DNA of 64,000 nucleotides from Hyaloraphidium curvatum (lineage: Eukaryota; Monoblepharomycota; Hyaloraphidiomycetes; Hyaloraphidiales; Hyaloraphidiaceae), in the NCBI GenBank assembly GCA_025558095.1, contig JAIVFI010000002.1:806001-870000 (forward strand), written 5' to 3'. Below are positions 4,817-64,000 of the stretch, one piece after another. Positions within the stretch are counted from its first letter, which is position 1. Each line of letters starts with the position of its first letter. Below the pieces are notes generated by a model. That model saw nothing but the letters and a program-made list of their open reading frames with translations, ran no database searches and had not been told where the DNA came from. A program made the position numbers and the translations under genes.

Positions 4817-6154
4817 AATAGAATAGAATAGTATTGGTGACCCGGACCTGCCCCTGGCTTGGCCGCTGTTACACCATGAGTTTGCTGCTAATTGCAAAGT
4901 TCATCGTCGTCGTGTGTCTTTTTCATTTTCCCAGTTTTCCTGTCCTTCATGGACTTTGAGATGAAGCTGGCAATGGAGTTGAGGGCCTTCTCCTTCTGCT
5001 GCCTTGTTTTGATCCTGGGCTCGAACTCCTTGATGCTAAGAGCCCAGAGCCAGGTCTCCATGTTCCACTCGCGGCCTAGTGCTTCCAATCTAGTCTGCAG
5101 CTTCTGGCGCCGCTCCGCATTTGCTGAACAGTGAAACAGAAAGTGTTGTTCGTCTCCAATGTGCTCAGGGTCATGCTTGCACGTTCTCTGCTGCACCTCA
5201 AGTCCTTGGTGCCTGCCTGTCTCCACCTCCAGGTCGTGGGTAGAGCAGAGCAGCTTCTGGACGTCCCTCCGGTGCTTCTCCACCCGGATCAGCGACAGTG
5301 CAATGTGACCAAAGGTCATGTCACACATCCTCCAGAAGTGCAGCTTGTCATTGTCCTCGAGCTTCTGGGCATTGATCTCCCTGAACTTGCCCTTCACAAG
5401 ATTCTCCACAGTCTCCTTGGGCCATGAGAAAGTGTCCTTCTCCCACATCTCCCTCCCATCTTCGCCGCCATAGTATACAAGTAGCTCCCTCAGGAAGGCA
5501 GCCCAGTTCCAGGACCCCTTCAGTGCCTCGATCTTGAGCTCTTTGTAAAGTAGGTACAGTGCAGGATCCGCTGTTTTGATGCGCATGAGGAACTTGAGTG
5601 CCGACTCGTGGTCATGAACTGCAAGGGGGTACTGGCCAGTGATCGCATACAGACAGGCCAGGGAGGTAGACTTGCGCAGATGAGTGACGGCACGAAGAGC
5701 CATGCATGACACTTTGTCCCTGGTGCTTTCCCCGGCAAGGTACTCCTCCTTCGGCATCTCAACAGTGAACGGGTTCCCATATTGGCCCACTGCCTTGACC
5801 TTTGTGTTGCAGAGCTTGAGCTGGAGGTCAGGACTCATCCCAGGCTGCTCCCTGATGTCACGGAGCCAGAGCCCATAAGCAGCATTCATCTTGGCCTCTC
5901 TGCCATTCACATGGTCCTTGCTCCGGCCGGTTGAGGTCAGCTGATACCCCAGAAGCTTCAAGCTGTCGACCCTCTTCAGCTCCTGGCCCCTGTACAAAAG
6001 CTTTGCACGGTGGGGTATCCTCCTGGCCATCCACTCTGTTTTGCTGACGTTGATCTCCAGCCCATTGCATTGGCATGTGCAGACAAAAGATCCAGCTGCA
6101 TCTATCTTGGCATCCTTCAGCGTCTTCGAGATCAAAGTGGTGTCGTCTGCAAAG
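4817..6154 (-). mobile_element. non-LTR retrotransposon (LINE), 3' half, interrupted
   Basis: The minus strand carries the end of a reverse-transcriptase ORF (stop near 4888). It is nearly identical in protein to the plus-strand LINE at 10930-12100 (shared LEINVSKTEWMARRIPHR and LLGYQLTSTGRSKDHVNG). Toward its C-terminus it has a Cys/His cluster (CKHDPEHIGDEQHFLFHC) typical of the tail of many LINE polymerases. The 3' end is a short run of GAATA units (TATTC on the element strand) at about 4817-4836, a microsatellite-like LINE tail. Homology stops at 6154, inside the codons for the RT box FADD, where an LTR begins. A 4-base insertion with a nearby compensating deletion changes the frame locally at about 6070-6105. 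Long intact frame (about 415 codons), but no complete polymerase. Confidence 0.88.
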
Positions 6155-6378
6155 TGTTGGAGTGGCTATGGGGCGTGGGGAATACGTAGCCCCAGTGGTC
6201 TGGACCGGGTCTGAACTCAGATGGACGGGATGGGGAGAGCGACAGTTTCACGTTGACCCGTTGTCCATTCCCTTGTGATGACAAGTCCCTAGATGACCCC
6301 TCCGGTCGTACCCAAGTATCCCCACACGCCAATAGACTCCCTATTGATACAGAATTGTAGCAACAATCCATTCCAACA
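6155..6378 (-). repeat. Ty1/copia-type long terminal repeat (3' LTR, 224 bp)
   Basis: On the minus strand the segment begins TGTTGGAATGG and ends TCCAACA, so it has the TG...CA ends and short terminal inverted repeat of an LTR. Just upstream on that strand lies a purine-rich GAGGGGGAG, the expected polypurine tract for plus-strand priming. The other end abuts LINE sequence within the FADD codons (LINE bases resume at 6154), so the LTR sits in the minus-strand LINE. No matching 5' LTR was found in the window. The boundary call rests on terminal signals, not on a second copy. Confidence 0.75.
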
Positions 6379-8564: not shown

Positions 8565-9820
8565 GAAAACGAGACTCGGACATGCCTCAAGATACTGTAC
8601 CAAAACGTCGAGCAGAAGCTCGAGAAGAGCCTCTTTATACGTGAGCTGCTGCTACACATTGTAGAGTACGATATCGTCGTTTTCGCTGAAGCAAGGTGGA
8701 CGGACAAAGGCGAGAAGCGGACTTGGGAGGAGCATATGAGCAACAACGACATCCGCGCAGAGGTTGCCGCGGTACTGGAAACGTTCGAGGTTTATGAGAA
8801 GAGCTGCTCGGAGCATGGTGGAGGAGGGTTGACGGTCTTTGTGCGAAAGGAGCTACCGCACACCGTACGGACAGACTTGGACCCGATCCTGGACGTCGTG
8901 CAGATCCAAGTCGGCGGAGTGAATGTGCTGGGGGCGTACATACCGCCGACGCCAACGCAGGACATACTCACACAGGACGAGATGTGGTCGAGGTTCTCAG
9001 GGATTGTGGCTGGGTGCGACATGCCGATCGTGATCGGGGACCTGAACGCACATGTGGGGATAAGCGAGGCAAACAGCGACGTGCGTGGCACGAGCTTCGG
9101 AAAGCGTGTAATCCGGTCGGAGCAGCGCACGGATCGGAGGGGGAAACAGCTACTTGCACTGTGCCACGAGGAGGAGCTGGTGATCCTGAATGGGCGCCTC
9201 GAGCCGGGGGCAACAACTCGCGCAGGAAAGGATGGCGAGCGGGACAGCACCTTGGACTACGCAATCGTGCCGCAGAGCCGCTACGGGACGGTCACCCAGC
9301 TTGCATTTGTGAAGGAAGGCTGGGTCGTCACCTCAGACCACATGGCACTGAGCCTGACCATCAAGGTTAACCTTGTGCGACCAGCTGCGAAGGAGAACAA
9401 GCCGCACGGCAAGCCCGTGCCGTGCGACTTCCACTTCCTTGCAATAATGCAAAACCTCTACGACAAGCCCTGGGTCAAGGAGGCAATGCAAGAGTACGAG
9501 CAACTTCAAGCTGGATCCGACAAGTGCAACCGGCTCATCCAGATCATGGCAGCGGTGAACAAGGTCGCGAAGAAGAAGTACGACAAGGTCAGCGTACACG
9601 AAGAGGCGGACAAGTTCCTCAACGGCTTTGCGGACTCGGCAGAGAGGGCCGAGATCGATCGGAAGCTGTCAGCATGCGGTTGCAATGTGAGCAAGCCGGG
9701 TCTAGAACGCGACCCGCTAACCAATGAAGGCGACCCCCTTGCTAGTACGGGGCAACCCCCTTGCCAAAATGACCCGCACCCGTGCCGCGGAGCAAGCCAA
9801 GCAAAAGGGAAGGCGCGCCC
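8565..9820 (+). pseudogene. LINE apurinic/apyrimidinic-type endonuclease segment
   Basis: From a stop codon at 8562 the frame reads LKILYQNV (first catalytic Asn), FAEARW (catalytic Glu), GDLNAHVG, TLDYAIV and SDHMALSL (catalytic Asp-His). These are the ordered motifs of the endonuclease/exonuclease/phosphatase fold in LINEs, which nicks target DNA. The first ATG in frame is at 8736, after two motifs, so it is not the true start. The frame then needs a shift to enter the RT reading at about 9790-9830. The segment 9710-9790 contains imperfect repeats of CGACCCCCTT/CAACCCCCTT that may explain slippage. Confidence 0.85.
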
Positions 9821-12100
9821 GCTGACGAGTGGAAGAAGGAGTACCAAGGGAAGACGCGGGAGCTGGAGAAGGAGCGGAAGAAGTTGGAGAAGAGGATGCG
9901 GAGGGTTGCTGAGCGAGAGAACTCCAAGCTGCTAGAGCGACTCTTCAGGCGAGAGCCTAAGGGGTACTACCAGCTGCTTGGAAAGGCTCACGCAAGGCGC
10001 AAGGGCAACCCCGTGCCCTTTGCAGAGCTGGTGCGCCACATGGAGATGGTCGCCAGCGCTGAGTACGTGACCAAGATCGAGGAGGATCCAAGGCTCACGT
10101 TTCCACCACTTCCCAAGGCCACGATCACGCCTTCTGGAGACCTGCTGCGCCCCATCACCCTCAAGGAGCTGGAGAGGGTCTTGAAGAAGGCCCCCAACGG
10201 CAAGGCAAAGGACGAGGATGGGATCCGGCTCGAGTTCGTCAAGTACGGGACTGCAGTACTGAAGCAAGCTGTTGTCAACCTCCTCAACGACGTGCTCAAT
10301 GGCGTCAAGATGGATGACTGGGGCCAGACACTGCTGGTGATGCTACACAAGAAGGGGCCCAAGAACGTGGCTGGCAACTACCGAGGCATCAGCATAGAGA
10401 GGACGCTGGAGAAGGTCTTCTCCCTGGTCTGGAACGCTCGGCTAGCTCCCTGGGCTGAGTGCAACAAGCTGCTGGAAGGCTCGCAGTTTGGATTCCGTGC
10501 ACGGAGATCGACCCTTCATGCAGTGTTCCTTGCCGAGGCACTCTTCTCCCTGGCCAAGGCACACAAGGAGAAGCTGATCATGGTGTTTGTAGATTTCACA
10601 AAGGCTTTTGACACGGTGGAGCGCCCCAGGTTATGGCAGAAGCTGGAGGAGATGGGTGTACCCAAACAGGTTGTTGACATGTTCGAGATGGCGTTCGGGC
10701 GCGTGTGGGGACGGCTCCGGGATGAAGACGGGACCAAGTCAGACTTCATCAAGTTCCTGACCGGAGTGAAGCAGGGGGACCCTCTCTCGTCGCTGTTCTT
10801 CATCTTGTTCATCAACGACATCACTGCTTTCATGGAGGCCAATGGTGCAAAGGGGATGGATCTGGGCATGGTGTCTGAGGAGGAAGAGGATCAGGAGAGG
10901 ATGGTCAGCTTGCTAGCTCTGTTCTTTGCAGACGACACCACTTTGATCTCGAAGACGGTGAAGGATGCCAAGATGCAGCTGGATCTTTTGTCTGCATATG
11001 CCAGTGCCAATGGGCTGGAGATCAACGTCAGCAAGACAGAGTGGATGGCCAGGAGGATACCTCACCGTGGAAAGCTCATGTACAGGGACCAGGAGCTGAA
11101 GAGGGTTGACAGCTTCAAGCTTCTGGGGTATCAGCTGACCTCAACCGGCCGGAGCAAGGACCATGTGAATGGCAGAGAGGCCAAGATGAATGCTGCTTAT
11201 GGGCTCTGGCTCCGTGACATCAGGGAGCAGCCTGGGATGAGTCCTGACCTCCAGCTCAAGCTCTGCAACACAAAGGTCAAGGCAGTGGGCCAATATGGGA
11301 ACCCGTTCACTGTTGAGATGCCGAAGGAGGACTACCTTGCCGGGGAAAGCACCAGGGACAAAGTGTCATGCATGGCTCTTCGTGCCGTCACTCATCTGCC
11401 CAAGTCTACCTCCCTGGCCTGTCTGTATGCGATCACTGGCCAGTACCCCTTGCAGTTCATGACCACGAGTCGGCACTCAAGTTCCTCATGCGCATCAAAA
11501 CAGCGGATCCTGCACTGTACCTACTTTACAAAGAGCTCAAGATCGAGGCACTGAAGGGGTCCTGGAACTGGGCTGCCTTCCTGAGGGAGCTACTTGTATA
11601 CTATGGCGGCGAAGATGGGAGGGAGATGTGGGAGAAGGACACTTTCTCATGGCCCAAGGAGACTGTGGAGAATCTTGTGAAGGGCAAGTTCAGGGAGATC
11701 AATGCCCAGAAGCTCGAGGACAATGACAAGCTGCACTTCTGGAGGATGTGTGACATGACCTTTGGTCACATTGCACTGTCGCTGATCCGGGTGGAGAAGC
11801 ACCGGAGGGACGTCCAGAAGCTGCTCTGCTCTACCCACGACCTGGAGGTGGAGACAGGCAGGCACCAAGGACTTGAGGTGCAGCAGAGAACGTGCAAGCA
11901 TGACCCTGAGCACATTGGAGACGAACAACACTTTCTGTTTCACTGTTCAGCAAATGCGGAGCGGCGCCAGAAGCTGCAGACCAGACTGGAAGCACTGGGC
12001 CGAGTGGAACATGGAGACCTGGCTCTGGGCTCTTAGCATCAAGGAGTTCGAGCCCGCGATCAAAGTGAGGTGGCAGAAGGAGAAGGTCCTCAACTCCCTC
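9800..12100 (+). pseudogene. LINE reverse transcriptase, frameshifted
   Basis: RT motifs in order: NYRGISI, FGFRARRST, FVDFTKAFDTV (motif A, catalytic Asp), GVKQGDPLSSLFF (motif B) and FADDTTLIS (motif C, FADD in place of YADD). The frame breaks at 11446-11449, where the minus-strand copy has five cytosines (read CCC CTT) and this copy has four. Reading resumes in another frame to the Cys/His tail domain (CKHDPEHIGDEQHFLFHC). With the endonuclease/RT shift this copy needs at least two frame changes and cannot encode one continuous polymerase. Motifs A-C are intact, so decay is recent. Confidence 0.87.
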
Positions 12101-50591: not shown

Positions 50592-52567
50592 ATGTCCGAC
50601 CAGGCGATATTCCGCGTACAGCGCGAAGTACGCCCCATCGCGGTCCGCCTGCTTTGGCCCAGCTTACGGGGTCGGATTGCGGCCGTTCCCAGATCGCGGA
50701 CCTGATGCGGAACCCGGACCAATCGTTCATCGTTCATCAGTCGGAGGACAACATCCTCCATGTTCACGCGCTGGTGTTTGGGCCCCCGAGCACCCCGTAT
50801 GCCCACGGCATGTTCGACTTCACGCTAGGTCCTCTTTCTCCCGACCCCTGGCCATCGTTTCTGGAGGCGCTCACCGCGGACGATGCAGACTTCCCGAAGG
50901 ACTATCCCACCAATGCTCCCAAAGTCGTTGCCACGACGACCAGCGGAAACCGGGTCAGGTGGGTACCGCGTGACGGCGATGTGGGCCAGGCCTCCCGCGG
51001 CAATTGGGACCTAACTCCTGTCGACTGCAGGTTCAACCCGAACATCTACGCCGGTGGAAAGTGGGTAGACCCCGTGCATTCGCAGTGCGCGCGCTGACTG
51101 GCCGTGCCACAGGGTTTGCCTGTCGATTCTGGGGACCTGGCGCGGGGAGACCGGGGAGCAGTGGAGCTCCGCACACGGGATCCTGTCCGTGCTCATCTCG
51201 ATCCAGAGCTTGATGTCCGACAAGGTAGGCGAGTATCTTTTCACCCTTGCTGAATGCTCACCCAGCTTGTTTCGCAGCCTTATCTCAACGAAGTACGATT
51301 GTGTGACAGATGTCATCCTTCCATCACTAACTCTCTGGCTGCAGCCCGGCTTCGAAAACACAAAGGACGACAAGATAATCCAGTCCTACAACGAGTGAGT
51401 CGGTCCGTGGAACCGATGGTCCCGCCGTTTCCAACGCTGGCGCTGCAGCAAAATCCGTCACGAGACGCTCCGGGTGTCTGTCTGCGAACGCATGGAGGCC
51501 ATCCTGAAGCATTCGGAGGGAGGTGTGCTGCGCAATTGGTGCTCGTGCCGGCCGCGGAGCCCCTTTGAGGACATTGCGAAGCGGCACTACCTTTTGTTCC
51601 ACGAGACCTACCTGGAAACGGTGGAGAAGGAGATGGAGCGGATTTCGGACAACACTGCCTTCCCCAGAATGCAGTTTGAGGTGGCTACTGGTCGTTGGGA
51701 AGGAGAGCTTGTCGGCTGACGACTCTGCCAGTACGCGTCCAACACCATGGAGGGCAACTACAACTACAAGGTGATCAAGGAGAAGCTGCTGAAGATCTAC
51801 AAGCAGCTGGAGGACGAGTGGCAGATCGAATGGGTCAAGTGAGTTAGCCGCGATCCGCCGAGGGCCCGCACCAACCCCTGCTGCACAGGGACTCGCTGAA
51901 GCGGATCGCGGACGATACCACGACAAAGAGCAACCTGAAGAGCCAGTTCGATCAGATCATGGAGTCGAAGGAGTTCGAGGGACGGATGGACATTGAGCTG
52001 GAGGACGGCAACCCTTTCATTTGGAACGTGACCGTCTGGGGTCCGATGATGTCGGCTTGTGAGTTGCCCCTGGCTCGGAGTATAGGCGGCGCCTGACCGT
52101 CGACAGGGGAGGGTGGCATGTTCCGGGCGAGGATCGTCTTCAACGAGGGGTTCCCGGTAGGTGGGCTTCCCCGACCATGGATCGTTCTCTGAGACGCTGC
52201 TCAGGACGTGTGGCCGCGCGTCAAGTTCACCACCCCGTTGGCGCATCCGCACATCACAAAGACCGGTGGCTACCCGTACTACAAAGTGCGGAGGGTGGAG
52301 GACATCCGGTCACACCTGAACGAGCTCTTCAAGCTCTTCTCTGACCCCGTCGATCCGAACCCTGGTTCGTTCATCGCGTTGCAGGGCAGCTCCGCTTGCT
52401 GACACGTTGCTGTCGTTTGTAGGCTCGCACGTGAATCTCGAGGCGGCGGAGCTCTGCTTTGGCAACAAGGATCAGCGGCGAGAATGTGGGTCGGCTGCCT
52501 GCGGCCCTCCTTTGTTGTAGACTGACCCGCCACTCGCATTCCAGACGCCAGGAACGCTCGAAGGTAG
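50592..52567 (+). CDS. tandem ubiquitin-conjugating (E2) protein: UBE2Z-type UBC plus pseudo-UBC
   Basis: ATG 50592. The first UBC domain has [16 protein letters not shown] (spliced), [50 protein letters not shown] with the catalytic Cys, and [12 protein letters not shown] with [17 protein letters not shown] in place of HPN and the SILGTW step match UBE2Z/USE1-type E2s. After about 100 linker residues (Cys-rich [10 protein letters not shown], then a helix) comes a second UBC fold: [36 protein letters not shown] and [19 protein letters not shown], then [17 protein letters not shown] and EAAELCFG. Where an E2 has HPN...C this domain has HPH and no Cys, so it is probably inactive. The last exon ends YARNARR with TAG at 52565-52567. 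About ten exons. Confidence 0.85.
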
Positions 52568-54352: not shown

Positions 54353-56457
54353 ATGGCCAAGGAAACGGCCAAGAAGGGCGATCTTCACCGCTCCTCGAAG
54401 CACTCTGGGGACCTTAGGAGGAAGAAGGGGGCCGGAAACCGCAACGATGACCCAGAGGCGGACGTTGCGACTCTCGCGTCGGACGAGCGCTTCCGGCACA
54501 TCCTGCGGGATCCGCGCTTCAAGAAGCTGAAGAAGGACAGGGCAAAGGTGGACATCGATGAGCGTTTTTCCAAGATGCTGGACAGCGAGGAGTTTGGCCA
54601 CGTTGGTGGGTGTGGAGGGGCTCCCCGTGACCTTGGTCTCACGGTCGAACAGCCAAAGTGGACAAGTACGGCCGGAAGCTCAAGCAGAAGAAAGGAGATG
54701 ATTTGCGCCGCTACTACAAGTTGGACAAATCCGAACCGCCGGGCAAGACCCGCGAGCGGGAGGCGGACGCGGGTCTCATCGACTCCGAAGATGAAGAAGA
54801 GGCAGAGCAACCGCAGAAGGAGTGGGACCGGGCCCGCGGCGAGGGTCCCATGTACTCGAGCTCGGAGGACGAGGAGGAAGAGGCAGAGGAAGCGTCGAGC
54901 GACGGGGAGGGATCACTTGGGGGTGCGGCCGACGATCTCGTCGAGTTTGAGGAGGACGATGTCTACGACCGGATAGGCCCCTTTGCCAACGAGGACATTC
55001 CCATGGGCGACGAGACCAGGAGGCTGGCGGTGGTGAACTTGGACTGGGACAATCTCAAGGCGCGGGATCTGTACAAGGCGCTCGCCAGCTTCAAGCCACC
55101 GGACGGGAGGGTTGTTTCCGTGAAGATCTACCCCTCCGAGTTCGGAAAGGAGCGCATGGCCCTCGAGCTGGAGCAGGGCCCGCCGGCCGAGATTTTCGGA
55201 GCCGGGTCCGCGGGGAAGGACGACGTGGGGACCGCGGGCGAGACCGACGTCGACGCCACCGGGCTGATCCAGGCCGATGCTGGGGAGGAGTTCGACAACG
55301 AGAAGCTGCGGGTCTACCAGCTCGAGAGGTTGCGGTACTACTATGCCATCGTCGAGTGTGACTCGGTGAGCACGGCCAAGGCCATCTACGACGCCTGCGA
55401 CGGGTCCGAGTTCGAAAAGACTTCGAACTTCTTGGACTTGCGCTACGTGCCCGACGAGGAGGAGTTTGCCGACGATCCGACCGACGTTGCGGACGACAAT
55501 CCGGCGGGATACAAGCCGGTGGACTTTGTCACCAAGGCTCTGCAGCACTCCAAAGTCGAGCTCACGTGGGATCAGGACTCGACGGAGAGAGTCAAAACCA
55601 CGCGGCGCCGCTTCACCAAAGATGATCTGGCCGAAATGGACTTCCAGGCGTACTTGGGCAGCGACTCGGAAGAGGACGAAGCGGACGAAGAGACAAAGAA
55701 GAAGTACAGGGAGATGCTCCTGGGGGGATTGGAGGACGGGCAGGATGAGGAAGCCGAGGAGATGGAGATCACCTTCGCCCCCGGTCTGGACGGGAAGCTG
55801 GAGAACTCTGGCAACGACAAGCCAGGCCGAGGCGCCGCGAAAGACAAGAAGGGACGTTCGAAGCGTCAGGAGACGGCGAAGGACGACGCCGGCGACGGGC
55901 CCGAATTGGCAGAGCCGGACCTTGGGTTCGACGACCCCTTCTTCCTCGATGCCGAAGACCCGAAGGCTGCCAAAAAGCGAGCTAAAGAGTCGAAAAAGAA
56001 GAAGGACCGCCATGCACCGGACGACGGGCAGTCCAAGGCCCGCGCAGAACTCGAGCTCCTCCTGGCCGACGAATCTGGTGCGGCGCCGCAACACTTCGAC
56101 ATGAAGGAGATTTTGAAGGAGGAGAAGAGGGCTCGCCGGAAGAAGGGCCGCAAGGGGAAGGATAAGACCGAGGCCGCCGACTCGTTCGAGATCGACGTAA
56201 ACGATCCGCGCTTCGCACCAATGCTCAGTTCCGGCGCCTTTGCCATCGACACGACCAGCTCCAACTTCAAGGACACAACGAACATGCGGAAGCTCCTGGA
56301 GGCCCGGAAGTCGCGAGCTTCGGGTAGCGGGGACAAATGGACCGTGACCGAGTCGGAGCAGAGGCCCGACGACATCAAGGCTCTCGTGGCCAACGTGAAG
56401 CGGAAGGCGGCTGTCAATGGAGGTTCTAATGCGCCTGCGAAGAAACAAAGGCAGTAG
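54353..56457 (+). CDS. ESF1: ESF1 nucleolar pre-rRNA processing factor
   Basis: ATG 54353 begins a basic N-terminus. DERFRHILRDPRFKKLKKDR and VDIDERFSKMLDSEEFG are ESF1 hallmarks. An intron at about 54605-54655 joins to DKYGRKLKQKKGDDLRRYY. A Glu/Asp-rich stretch follows, then an RRM-like region (RRLAVVNLDWDNLKARDLY, RVVSVKIYPSEFGKERM, RYYYAIVECDSVSTAKAIYD) with the acidic ESF1 insertion, LDLRYVP, DFVTKALQHSKVELTWDQD and, near the C-terminus, FEIDVNDPRFAPMLSSGAFA and IDTTSSNFKDT. The last block is the conserved NUC153-type domain. ESF1 acts in early 18S processing with U3. One of the longest uninterrupted exons in the window. TAG at 56455-56457. Divergent from the DUF1769 gene by about 125 bases. 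Confidence 0.94.
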
Positions 56458-56532: not shown

Positions 56533-59500
56533 TCATTCCTCGTGGCGTGCAGCGATCTGCTTGATGCTTTCAGTCGAGACAGCCGCCATGTAGCCGAGAA
56601 TGTTGATCAGGGCCTCAGGGTTGGGGAGTCTGTACATAGCTTGTGTCCTGGAACCAATGCGTGAGCGTTCTGGCGGAATGAAAGCCACGATAGGCGCCTC
56701 ACCGGTTGCCAGCGTCCCCGATGTAAATGGTGTACACGTGATCCTGCGACTCCACTGCGGCGCGGATCGACTTGAACATCTGTCAACGCAGAAGGATGTC
56801 AGTGAATTCACGGCAAAGTGATTCCCCACATACGTCTTCGTCGGTCCGGTCGTCGCCAGCGCACATGATAAAGTCGTAGTGCTGGTCGCGGGCCAGCAGG
56901 CGCTTGACCATCTCCCCCTTGTTGATCATGCTAGGGCGCACTTCGAGATTCTTCTTGCCGAGCAAAATCTGGAACACGGCAGGTGAGCCAAATGCGCGCG
57001 CCTGAGGTGTCGCTGCAGCAACTTACATCCACGGGCAGCTTCGAGAGGATGGCGTTCTCAAGGTGGTTCTGGCACTCCTTGGCCTGGAATGACCCAAAGT
57101 CGGGGTCACTGAGCCGGTAGTGCCACGTCACGGCGCACGACTTGAGCTCCACGAACGAGCCCTGGGTGCGCTCCGTGTAGTAATCGAAGATCTTGCGCAC
57201 GTCCTCCTTCCAGCTGAGGTCCAGCCCGACTTCCTGGGTCACGTCCACCCACTCCCAGTCTCCTGGCCAGCGTATGAAGCACCCGTGCTCGGCGCAGAGG
57301 CCCAGGCCGGGGATGTGACCTAGCCACTCCTCCAAAGCGGCCCTGTCGCGCCCGGACACAACGAAGACGTAGTTGGCGGGATCGAGGACGAGCGTCGTCA
57401 GGGCGGTCAGCATCTTTGCTGGCGGCACTGCCTCGCCCGGCGTCTTGCGGATCGGGGTGAGCGTGCCGTCGTAGTCGAAGATGAGCAGCCGCCGCGCGCT
57501 GCCGCGGTACGTCCCGAGGATCGAGCTGGCCTTGGCCATCGGCACGGGGCCCTGCACCTCGGGGGCCTTGTGGCAGCTGCGCAGTTCGCGGACGAACTGG
57601 TGGCCCCAGACCTGCGCCGTCTGGTTGATGACGTGGTTATAGAGCTGCTGGTGCCGCGCGATCTTGTCCTCCTTGGACATGGTGAGCGCCTCGTAGATCG
57701 CGTTGGCGCATCCAAGGTGGTCCCAGGGGTTGACCTGGAGTGGAACGTTCAGCATCGCAGTCTGCGCAGGTCACGATGCAAGAGCTTACCATGATGCTGC
57801 TACCCAGCGAGCCGGCCGTACCCGTGAACTCGGACAGGATCAGCGGCGACTTGTTCTCTGTGGAAGCACGTCAGTGAGAACAAAACGCTGGCTTCTCCGA
57901 GAAGAGCGCACCCTGCTGGCAGACGATGAACTCGTGGCTGGTCGTGTTCATGCCGTCGCGCAGCGCGGTGACCAGGCCGACGTCGGCGATTGATAGCAGC
58001 GCGTAGTACTCTGAAGAGCGGACAGGTCAGCGACAGGACAAACGGCCACCACCGGGGCGCGCACCATCGCGATCGAGGTTCAGCTGGTGGTAGTGGTGCA
58101 CGGGCGCAAACTCGAGCGAGCCAAAGTGGCCGTTGATGCGGGCCACCAGCTCGGCGAACTTGGCCTCGAGGCGCGGGATCTCGCGCTGCGGCGGCGTCGT
58201 CACCTGGATCAGCACGACCTGGGTTGGCAGAAGATCAGCATGACATCAGATCCCGCCCCGTTGCCCGCCAGACCTTGTTCTGAAACTCGGGATACAGCCT
58301 GAGGAACTTCTCGAAGCTGGCGAGCTTGTGCGCGACGCCCTTGACCTGGTCCAGTTTGTCCCTCCCCACGATGATCTTCTTGCCCGGGTACATCTCCCGG
58401 ATCGACTGCATCTTCTCCAGCACCGCGGGCATCTTGCGCCTCCGCTCGACGCGGTTGACGTCGATCCCCACCGGCACGATGCGCACCTCGACGAGGTTGC
58501 CGTTGTACTCGACACCGCGGGGCGACGACTCGAGGCCCAGCACGCGGGTGCAGGAGGAGATGAAGTGGCGGGCTGGCGGGCATGAAGGGTGAGCACGACG
58601 GCCACCTTGTGTGACGTGCAAGCCGCTCACCGTAGCTGTAGGTCTGGAACCCAATAAGCTGCGAGCCCAGGACCCCCTCCAGGATCTGCTTCCGCCGCGG
58701 ACCGCAGCGGAAAATCTCAGAGGACGGGAAGGGGGTGTGGAGGAAGAAGCCGATCGTCGCCGCGGGCCGCAGCTCGCGCAGCATCGCGGGTATCAGGAAG
58801 AGATCTGAGGCGTGCCGGCCAAGTCAGAGGGAGTCACCGGGAGGGAAACGCTTCATACGAACGGTAGTCATGGAGCCAGACGAGGTCGTTGTCCTGCATG
58901 GTGGCCGCGATTGTTTCGGCAAACTTCCTGCTCATCGCGACGTAGTCGTCCCAGTTCCGGTTCTCGGCAGCGCCGTCGAATTCAATGTCCATCATGACGT
59001 AGTGCAGGAGCGGGTACAAATCTGTCGCCGACGATGAGCGCCACAAGTCTTGGGCCATGATCCCTCCGGCAAGTGACTCACGGGTCTTGCAGTACCCCTC
59101 GTAGCTGCCGGTGGCCACCTTGTCCTCCAGGATCACGGGCACGTACTTGTACTCGAGCCACAGCTGCTTTTTGAGCTCCTCGATCAGGTCCGGGGGCATC
59201 GTCGCGGGGTCGACGATGTTGCCGTTGACGTCGGTTATCGGCCCCGTCCAGGCGACGTAGACGAGCTCCTCGGTCGACTTGAGCGAGTGGATGCCCGAGT
59301 ACATGGCTGGAGGTTGCGGGATCAGTCAGACGAGATACGGCGACGGGACAGACGGGACGGCCCCCCGTGACTCACCGCTGTACCCGCCCCGCGGGGCAAA
59401 CTTCCACAGCTTGTTGGTGTTCGCCTCCCTCGACATCTCGTCCTCCGAGTGCGGATCGGCCGGGACCCGGTCCTCGCCGTCGTCGAGCAGCGTGCTCTCG

Positions 59501-62230: not shown

Positions 62231-64000
62231 TTACGCAGCAACAGACGCGGGAGTCTGCGGTACCTTCGCAGACGGTTCGGCAGCCGCGGCTGCTGCCGCA
62301 GGCGGGCCCGCCCGCGGCGGAGCCGCGCCTCCCTCGCGGGCAATCGTCCGCACCGGTTTCGCTACCCGGTGTACCGGCCGATGGAGGATCTTGCGGAGCT
62401 CCTGCTGAATCATGTGGCGCCCCTCGGTCGAGCTGATGGCCGGCAGCGTCCGCGTCAGCTCCAGCAGGTCGCAATCCGGCACAGCCGCCGGAGCCTGATC
62501 GCCCACGCGGAGCACAAAGAACTGGGGGTGCAGCCGCTTCATGAGCAGGCTCGCGTCCGGGATCGAGACGGGGTACTCCATCGCCGGCGGATCCCCAGGC
62601 TTCCGGATGAAGCCGATCATGTCCATCGACGCCAGCCGCTCGGCCATGTCGTACTCGCTGATGCTCGACCAGATGTTGTGCTCGTGTGGATCGACGCCCT
62701 CCTCGCCCAGGCTGCCCGAAATTGGGCCCACGAAGCCAAAGAAGGGGTTTCGGCGCCAGCTGTCGTCGACAAAGATGTCCTCTCCGTCGCGCCGGATCCG
62801 GAACCGCTTCGGCTTCGGGAGCTCCTCGAAGTGGCCGTCGTAGTCGGGATCGATGGTCCAGTAGCTACCCTTGCCCGTCCCATCGTCGCGAGGGACCTTC
62901 TTGAACGCCTTGTTCAGGCTCAGCTGATGGCGCACAGAGTTCTGGACGGCAACGTCAGATACACTCACCGACGAGAAAGGGCACGGCAACTGACCTGCCA
63001 CTTGAGGCCCGCGTAATGGTAGTAGGGGTACCTGTCCTTGATGGCGTCGTAGATCCCTGCGAGGGTGAGCCTCTTGTTCGGGGCCAAGATGATGGCCTCG
63101 CCGATCAGGTTGGCGTAAGAATACTCCGGTTTCGGGTACGGGATGCTGGCGGGATCCATGATGATCTCGTCATCGTTCCGTTTGCGCTTCAGGCCGTCGA
63201 ACTTGGGTTTGGAAACCATGGGCTTCGGCAGCTTCGGCTTCGGGATCTCCGAGACAACAGCAAGCTCTTCGTCCGCGACAGCGGCGGCCGGCTTCTTGGC
63301 TTTGGCGAGCTCGCCCTTGGGCTTTGCCTTGGGCTTCGACGGCTCCTTCAGCTTGACGGCCTTTGCGCTCTCCGACTTGCCAATCTTTGGCCCTTCCGGT
63401 TTCGCCTTGGCTTTGGCAGCCTCGACCCTCGCCTTAGCAGCGTCGCTCTTGGCTTTGGCCTCGGCCTTTGCTGCCTTTGCCGCATCGGCCCTCGCCCTCG
63501 CGGCCTCCGCCTTGGCGGACTTGCCCTTGGGCTGCTTCGCCTTGGGCTCCGCTTTCTTGGCGGGCTTCTTCTTCCTCTTCTTCCGCTCGGGCTCGTCGTC
63601 ATCGGGCTCGTCAATGTCCATGGCAAAGTCGTCCTCCGGGAGCTCGTCAAACTCCTCGGGCTCCAAGCCGAGATCCAGATCGGCCTCCGCCTCGTCCGCA
63701 GCATCTTGGCCCGCGTCTGGAGCGGTTGGCAGTCCGAACTCAAAGGTGACGCCTCCGATTTCGAGCTGGTCTCTGCGGGACGGTGACGCTTGAGCGGCCC
63801 GTGTCCCCCTCGACCGGGTCCAGCACTTACCCCGATTCCAAAAGCACGGGCTCGGGACTCGGCTTGTAAAGCTCGCCGGCATGCCGAACGCCGTTCCTTC
63901 CGAGGACGAGCAGCTCCCTGACACGGAAGGCTCTGTGAGCGGGAGCCTTCGACGCAACTCCGACAGGCTTCCAACCATTTCCTCGTCCGGAAATTGAACT
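62231..64000 (-). CDS. FHL1: FHA plus forkhead transcription factor, FHL1-type, 5' partial
   Basis: The gene runs off the right edge; its N-terminus is missing. The first visible exon reads [20 protein letters not shown], then [12 protein letters not shown]. An intron at about 63772-63830 joins it to [15 protein letters not shown], together the C-terminal half of an FHA phosphopeptide-binding domain. A long Lys/Ala/Pro/Glu-rich linker follows (63250-63600), then the forkhead: [40 protein letters not shown], an intron, and [20 protein letters not shown] with [10 protein letters not shown] (recognition helix N-S-V-R-H-x-L-S). FHL1 controls ribosomal-protein genes in yeasts. The C-terminal 200 residues include a conserved-looking [20 protein letters not shown] and a Pro/Ala tail. 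Stop at 62231. Confidence 0.9.

Follow-up and report, generated by a model that had tools for sequence, protein, structure and literature searches.

The tandem-E2 gene and its surroundings

The window examined here is a 64,000-nt stretch of a Hyaloraphidium curvatum contig with a GC content of 61%, taken from a genome of 31.9 Mb in 55 contigs with short introns. At 50592-52567 (+) it contains one intact gene which, in a hand-built model of 14 exons and 13 introns, encodes a protein of 417 amino acids with two ubiquitin-conjugating (UBC) domains (Table 1); we refer to it as the tandem-E2 gene. Downstream of it are genes for an ESF1-type nucleolar protein at 54631-56454 (+; RRM_ESF1, 8.5e-58), a TPS2-like trehalose-phosphatase at 56934-57770 (-), and a forkhead protein at 62234-63999 (-), the last split over frames. 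Near the other end of the window lies a LINE-type retrotransposon at 8565-11551 (+), whose two adjacent open frames code for an Exo_endo_phos_2 endonuclease and an RVT_1 reverse transcriptase (2.7e-31), and an additional RVT_1 fragment was found at 4891-6165 (-).

All 13 introns of the tandem-E2 gene are bounded by GT-AG and measure 48-72 nt, and a branch-site-like motif (CTNAC/T) was present in 10 of them. The initial annotation had described two UBC folds in one spliced gene, and a single open spliced frame does occupy the interval it gave; a 15-nt micro-exon was added to the model here. Our own initial hand-built model comprised 13 exons and 412 amino acids, again with every intron GT-AG, and its longest intron (120 nt) resolves into introns of 53 and 52 nt flanking the micro-exon. 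The five residues gained, PYLNE, bring back the UBE2Z motif PYHNEPGF and lift the phmmer score against UBE2Z (PDB 5a4p) from 143.1 bits (9.5e-41) to 161.8 bits (1.8e-46). In the 13-exon model, GC3 was 0.84 in both halves of the gene as compared to an intron GC of 0.62; domain 2 is thus as strongly coding as domain 1.

It is very unlikely that this model wrongly merges a UBE2Z-like E2 gene with an adjacent UBC pseudogene. If the intron at 51681-51731 were retained, the first product would terminate at the stop codon 51717-51719, but just 50-51 nt separate the exons at the join, the introns there are GT-AG and of normal size for the gene, and no room is left for a promoter. Moreover, the exon past the join still codes for the tail of a UBE2Z-type extension (GNYNY, compared with GHFDY). 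One protein joins an active-looking E2 to a UBC fold without an active site, and this architecture is well supported.

Table 1. Positions of the tandem-E2 gene features within the window, and of the ordinary UBE2Z gene found elsewhere in the genome.
Feature	Position	Strand	Remarks
Complete coding region	50592..52567	+	14 exons, 417 aa; stop TAG 52565-52567
Exons 1-5, UBE2Z-like UBC domain 1 core	50592-50627, 50693-50828, 50889-50958, 51031-51060, 51113-51224	+	
Catalytic Cys93 codon	51117..51119	+	aligned with UBE2Z Cys188
Micro-exon 6, 15 nt, PYLNE	51278..51292	+	+18.7 bits against 5a4p; missed by simple reading
Exons 7-9, last part of UBC 1, then C-terminal helical extension of UBE2Z/BIRC6 type with CxC	51345-51394, 51449-51680, 51732-51838	+	
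Exons 10-14, UBC domain 2 (residues ~262-417), predicted dead	51889-52058, 52107-52156, 52205-52364, 52423-52485, 52545-52567	+	
HPH, residues 350-352, replacing E2 HPN	52244..52252	+	
Pro360 codon at catalytic Cys column	52274..52276	+	within unbroken exon 52205-52364
Ordinary UBE2Z gene	L026 (G000:C44:35500-40500), ~3894-2910	-	

The two UBC domains

Domain 1 is an E2 of the UBE2Z class. Together with the C-terminal extension its top PDB match was 5a4p (E = 1.8e-46), the four best matches were all UBE2Z, followed by BIRC6, and the domain matched Pfam UQ_con at 5.2e-30. Cys93 aligns with the catalytic Cys188 of human UBE2Z, bearing out the initial description of this first UBC as UBE2Z-like with a catalytic Cys, and the UBC core is approximately 52% identical to that of the human protein. 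Loops LA and LB, as defined for UBE2Z (PMC4705383), are present in the alignment, LA as TTSGN and LB with its Trp, although LB is 3 residues longer than in UBE2Z. In UBE2Z and BIRC6 the C-terminal extension lies against the backside of the UBC (PMC4705383). That of the tandem-E2 protein aligns with the UBE2Z extension at the sequence level, and the BIRC6-class chain 9qgg aligns over residues 24-249 of the tandem-E2 protein. The disordered N-terminal extension of class IV is absent, the protein beginning at helix 1, and the gene is therefore a paralogue within the UBE2Z clade rather than an orthologue that has the complete UBE2Z architecture.

A stretch containing CxC had been taken initially for a Cys-rich linker between the domains and for a possible metal site. 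The stretch is part of the UBE2Z-type extension, where it corresponds to KCPCPEP of human UBE2Z, rather than of a spacer between the domains. The metal site was considered and rejected. It is unlikely because the host's own ordinary UBE2Z has no cysteines at the aligned position; in addition, the stretch offers only one CxC pair, and zinc is never mentioned in the UBE2Z structure paper (PMC4705383).

Domain 2 matched UQ_con at 1.3e-14 over profile positions 17-136 of 140, its 54.5 bits exceeding the curated cut-off of 27 bits, and matched PDB 5v0r at 2.2e-18. Given the UQ_con and PDB scores of both domains, neither is a chance match. The usual C-terminal UBC helices close domain 2, and the changes observed are in its motifs: HPN has become HPH (His352 in the Asn column), Pro360 followed by Tyr-Tyr occupies the column of the catalytic Cys, the loop after this column is shortened by 3-4 residues, and the YPxxPP motif is altered to FPDVWP. 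The first two of these changes had been noted in the initial annotation, and the splice variant restoring a Cys, which it had named as a possible objection, is excluded because Pro360 lies inside one uninterrupted exon (52205-52364). Judged by its sequence, domain 2 is a true UBC fold that is predicted to be unable to carry ubiquitin.

As to its family, the initial label of UEV did not hold. By sequence, domain 2 resembles class I E2s and falls outside the MMS2/UEV1 and TSG101 families: its best 60 PDB matches were E2s, with no MMS2/UEV1 or TSG101 chain among them, and it had no match to Pfam UEV. Two other origins were also considered and rejected. An internal duplication of domain 1 is at odds with the single weak match of 35 residues (E 0.001) shared by the two domains, whose best relatives differ, and a stand-alone copy of domain 2 was not recovered from the rest of the genome, the next best matches being ordinary E2s at 32-36% identity.

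With Cys, HPN Asn and post-Cys loop all gone, domain 2 could be the remnant of an ancient E2 fusion, a relic or scaffold without function that has been retained only for chain stability. We regard this as improbable, since the fold-defining residues have been retained (54 bits of UQ_con) and the frame stays open across five exons with a GC3 equal to that of domain 1.

Paralogues and E1 repertoire

An ordinary single-domain UBE2Z is encoded elsewhere in the genome, on contig C44 (3.9e-64 against 5a4p, extension included), along with a BIRC6-like E2 on contig C39 and a UBE2O-like E2 on contig C3 (L005), the latter in an open frame of 1022 amino acids. Immediately downstream of this UBE2Z are two mutually similar F-box/LRR-like genes in tandem. 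The BIRC6-like UBC (L012; KVCLSLLNTWQGSPEEMW) appears to be in a compact gene and not in a giant BIRC6.

In a tree of 6 sequences and 148 columns, the tandem-E2 protein fell inside the UBE2Z clade (94% bootstrap), and the fungal and human UBE2Z formed a pair (92%) that excluded it. This branching order suggests that the tandem-E2 gene is not a recent copy but an old, divergent UBE2Z paralogue, although the same pattern could arise from rapid evolution along one branch. The separate ordinary UBE2Z in the same genome likewise makes the gene a divergent and apparently old paralogue. If the duplication is old, then homologues of the two-UBC protein are expected in other fungi and likely exist. No relatives were found in the bacterial and archaeal genome contigs or the viral contigs searched, as expected because the gene is fungal and has many introns. 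In the open-licence literature we found no paper describing a two-UBC or tandem-UBC layout like the present one. Protein family databases contain entries with two-UBC architectures, and these lower any claim of novelty; the layout is an uncommon one assembled from well-known parts.

An exon-by-exon search of the genome recovered one gene with both an SCCH module and a UFD domain, on contig C33. The E1 it encodes is closest to yeast UBA1 (9.7e-109), with UBA6 far behind (~2e-63). A second, weaker SCCH match on contig C1 was accompanied by no UFD match and is likely to be a SUMO or NEDD8 E1 subunit. UBA6 was not detected by the exon-by-exon search of this assembly, which may have gaps, and the case for its absence from the genome is strong but not proven. 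In UBE2Z, the N-terminal extension is needed for UBA6 selectivity, and the protein without it loses that selectivity and takes ubiquitin from UBA1 (PMC4705383). A precedent for class IV E2s functioning with UBA1 is provided by PDB 9qgg, in which a BIRC6-class E2 occurs together with an E1 that matches the host's UBA1.

These results run against the UBA6-like E1 choice offered in the initial annotation, as the sole ubiquitin E1 found is UBA1 and the tandem protein has no N-terminal extension. For the same reasons the protein is most improbable as an enzyme of a UBA6/FAT10-type pathway: domain 1 does lie in the UBE2Z clade, and human UBE2Z does use UBA6, but UBA6 was not found in the genome, the single E1 with SCCH and UFD is UBA1-like, and the extension required for UBA6 selectivity is missing.

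Proposed role and known systems

The interpretation that we favour, and consider probable, is that the tandem-E2 protein is a UBE2Z paralogue charged by UBA1 and equipped with a non-catalytic, class I-like UBC docking module in cis. The proposed mechanism is as follows: Cys93 of domain 1 would be charged by UBA1, while the extension would lie against the domain 1 backside in the manner seen for UBE2Z and BIRC6. Because the UBE2Z extension covers the UBC backside, the tandem protein, too, is probably unable to bind ubiquitin there. Domain 2, at the end of the extension, would then serve as a built-in non-catalytic docking module, bringing an acceptor ubiquitin, a substrate or a partner near the charged Cys93. 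A UEV performs comparable positioning in trans for UBC13, and the docking role of domain 2 is proposed by analogy only; a non-catalytic role in cis is plausible. That an old fungal UBE2Z paralogue forms a self-sufficient two-UBC enzyme, with a pseudo-E2 in cis setting acceptor or substrate choice, in a lineage whose E2s of this class use UBA1 and not UBA6, is a possibility we put forward tentatively and with some doubt.

The main rival to docking is inhibition. Domain 2 might act in cis as an inhibitor or regulator, packing on domain 1 or on the extension and restricting charging or discharge until it is freed by a partner. The anatomy would be the same, with domain 2 placed directly after a helical extension that packs on the core in UBE2Z (PMC4705383), and loop LB, the Trp of which is kept in domain 1, already partly masks the active sites of the UBE2Z class. 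No feature of the sequence favours inhibition over docking, however, and we consider an inhibitory role unlikely.

E2 cofactors such as UEVs are usually separate proteins, and a covalent pair of active and inactive UBCs would allow the steering of an active UBC by a dead one to be tested in a fixed geometry. To our knowledge, nearly all work on UBE2Z concerns UBA6 and FAT10. A fungus with UBE2Z, a tandem paralogue, BIRC6-like and UBE2O-like E2s, and only UBA1 would reveal what the class does without UBA6.

Among known systems, UBE2Z (USE1, a class IV E2) shares with the tandem-E2 protein loops LA and LB, the active site NPN...VCLSILGTW and, by sequence alignment, a C-terminal helical extension in which the PGF, SYN and RHET motifs are conserved. 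It differs in having an N-terminal extension and an LB loop shorter by 3 residues, and in lacking a second UBC after the extension. The UBC module of BIRC6/BRUCE is of the same UBC-plus-extension class (3ceg, 2e-33) and has an LB loop of equal length, but the tandem protein has no BIR domain or giant scaffold, and the tree does not place it in the BIRC6 branch. Domain 2 is comparable to the class I E2s (RAD6/UBC1) in its whole UBC fold, C-terminal helices included, and in its WNVTVWGP segment; it departs from them at Pro360, HPH, the shorter post-Cys loop and FPDVWP. With the UEVs (MMS2/UEV1, TSG101) it has in common a UBC fold without the catalytic Cys, but domain 2 is closer to class I E2s and, unlike the UEVs, it is fused covalently to an active-looking E2 of a different class, and not to UBC13.
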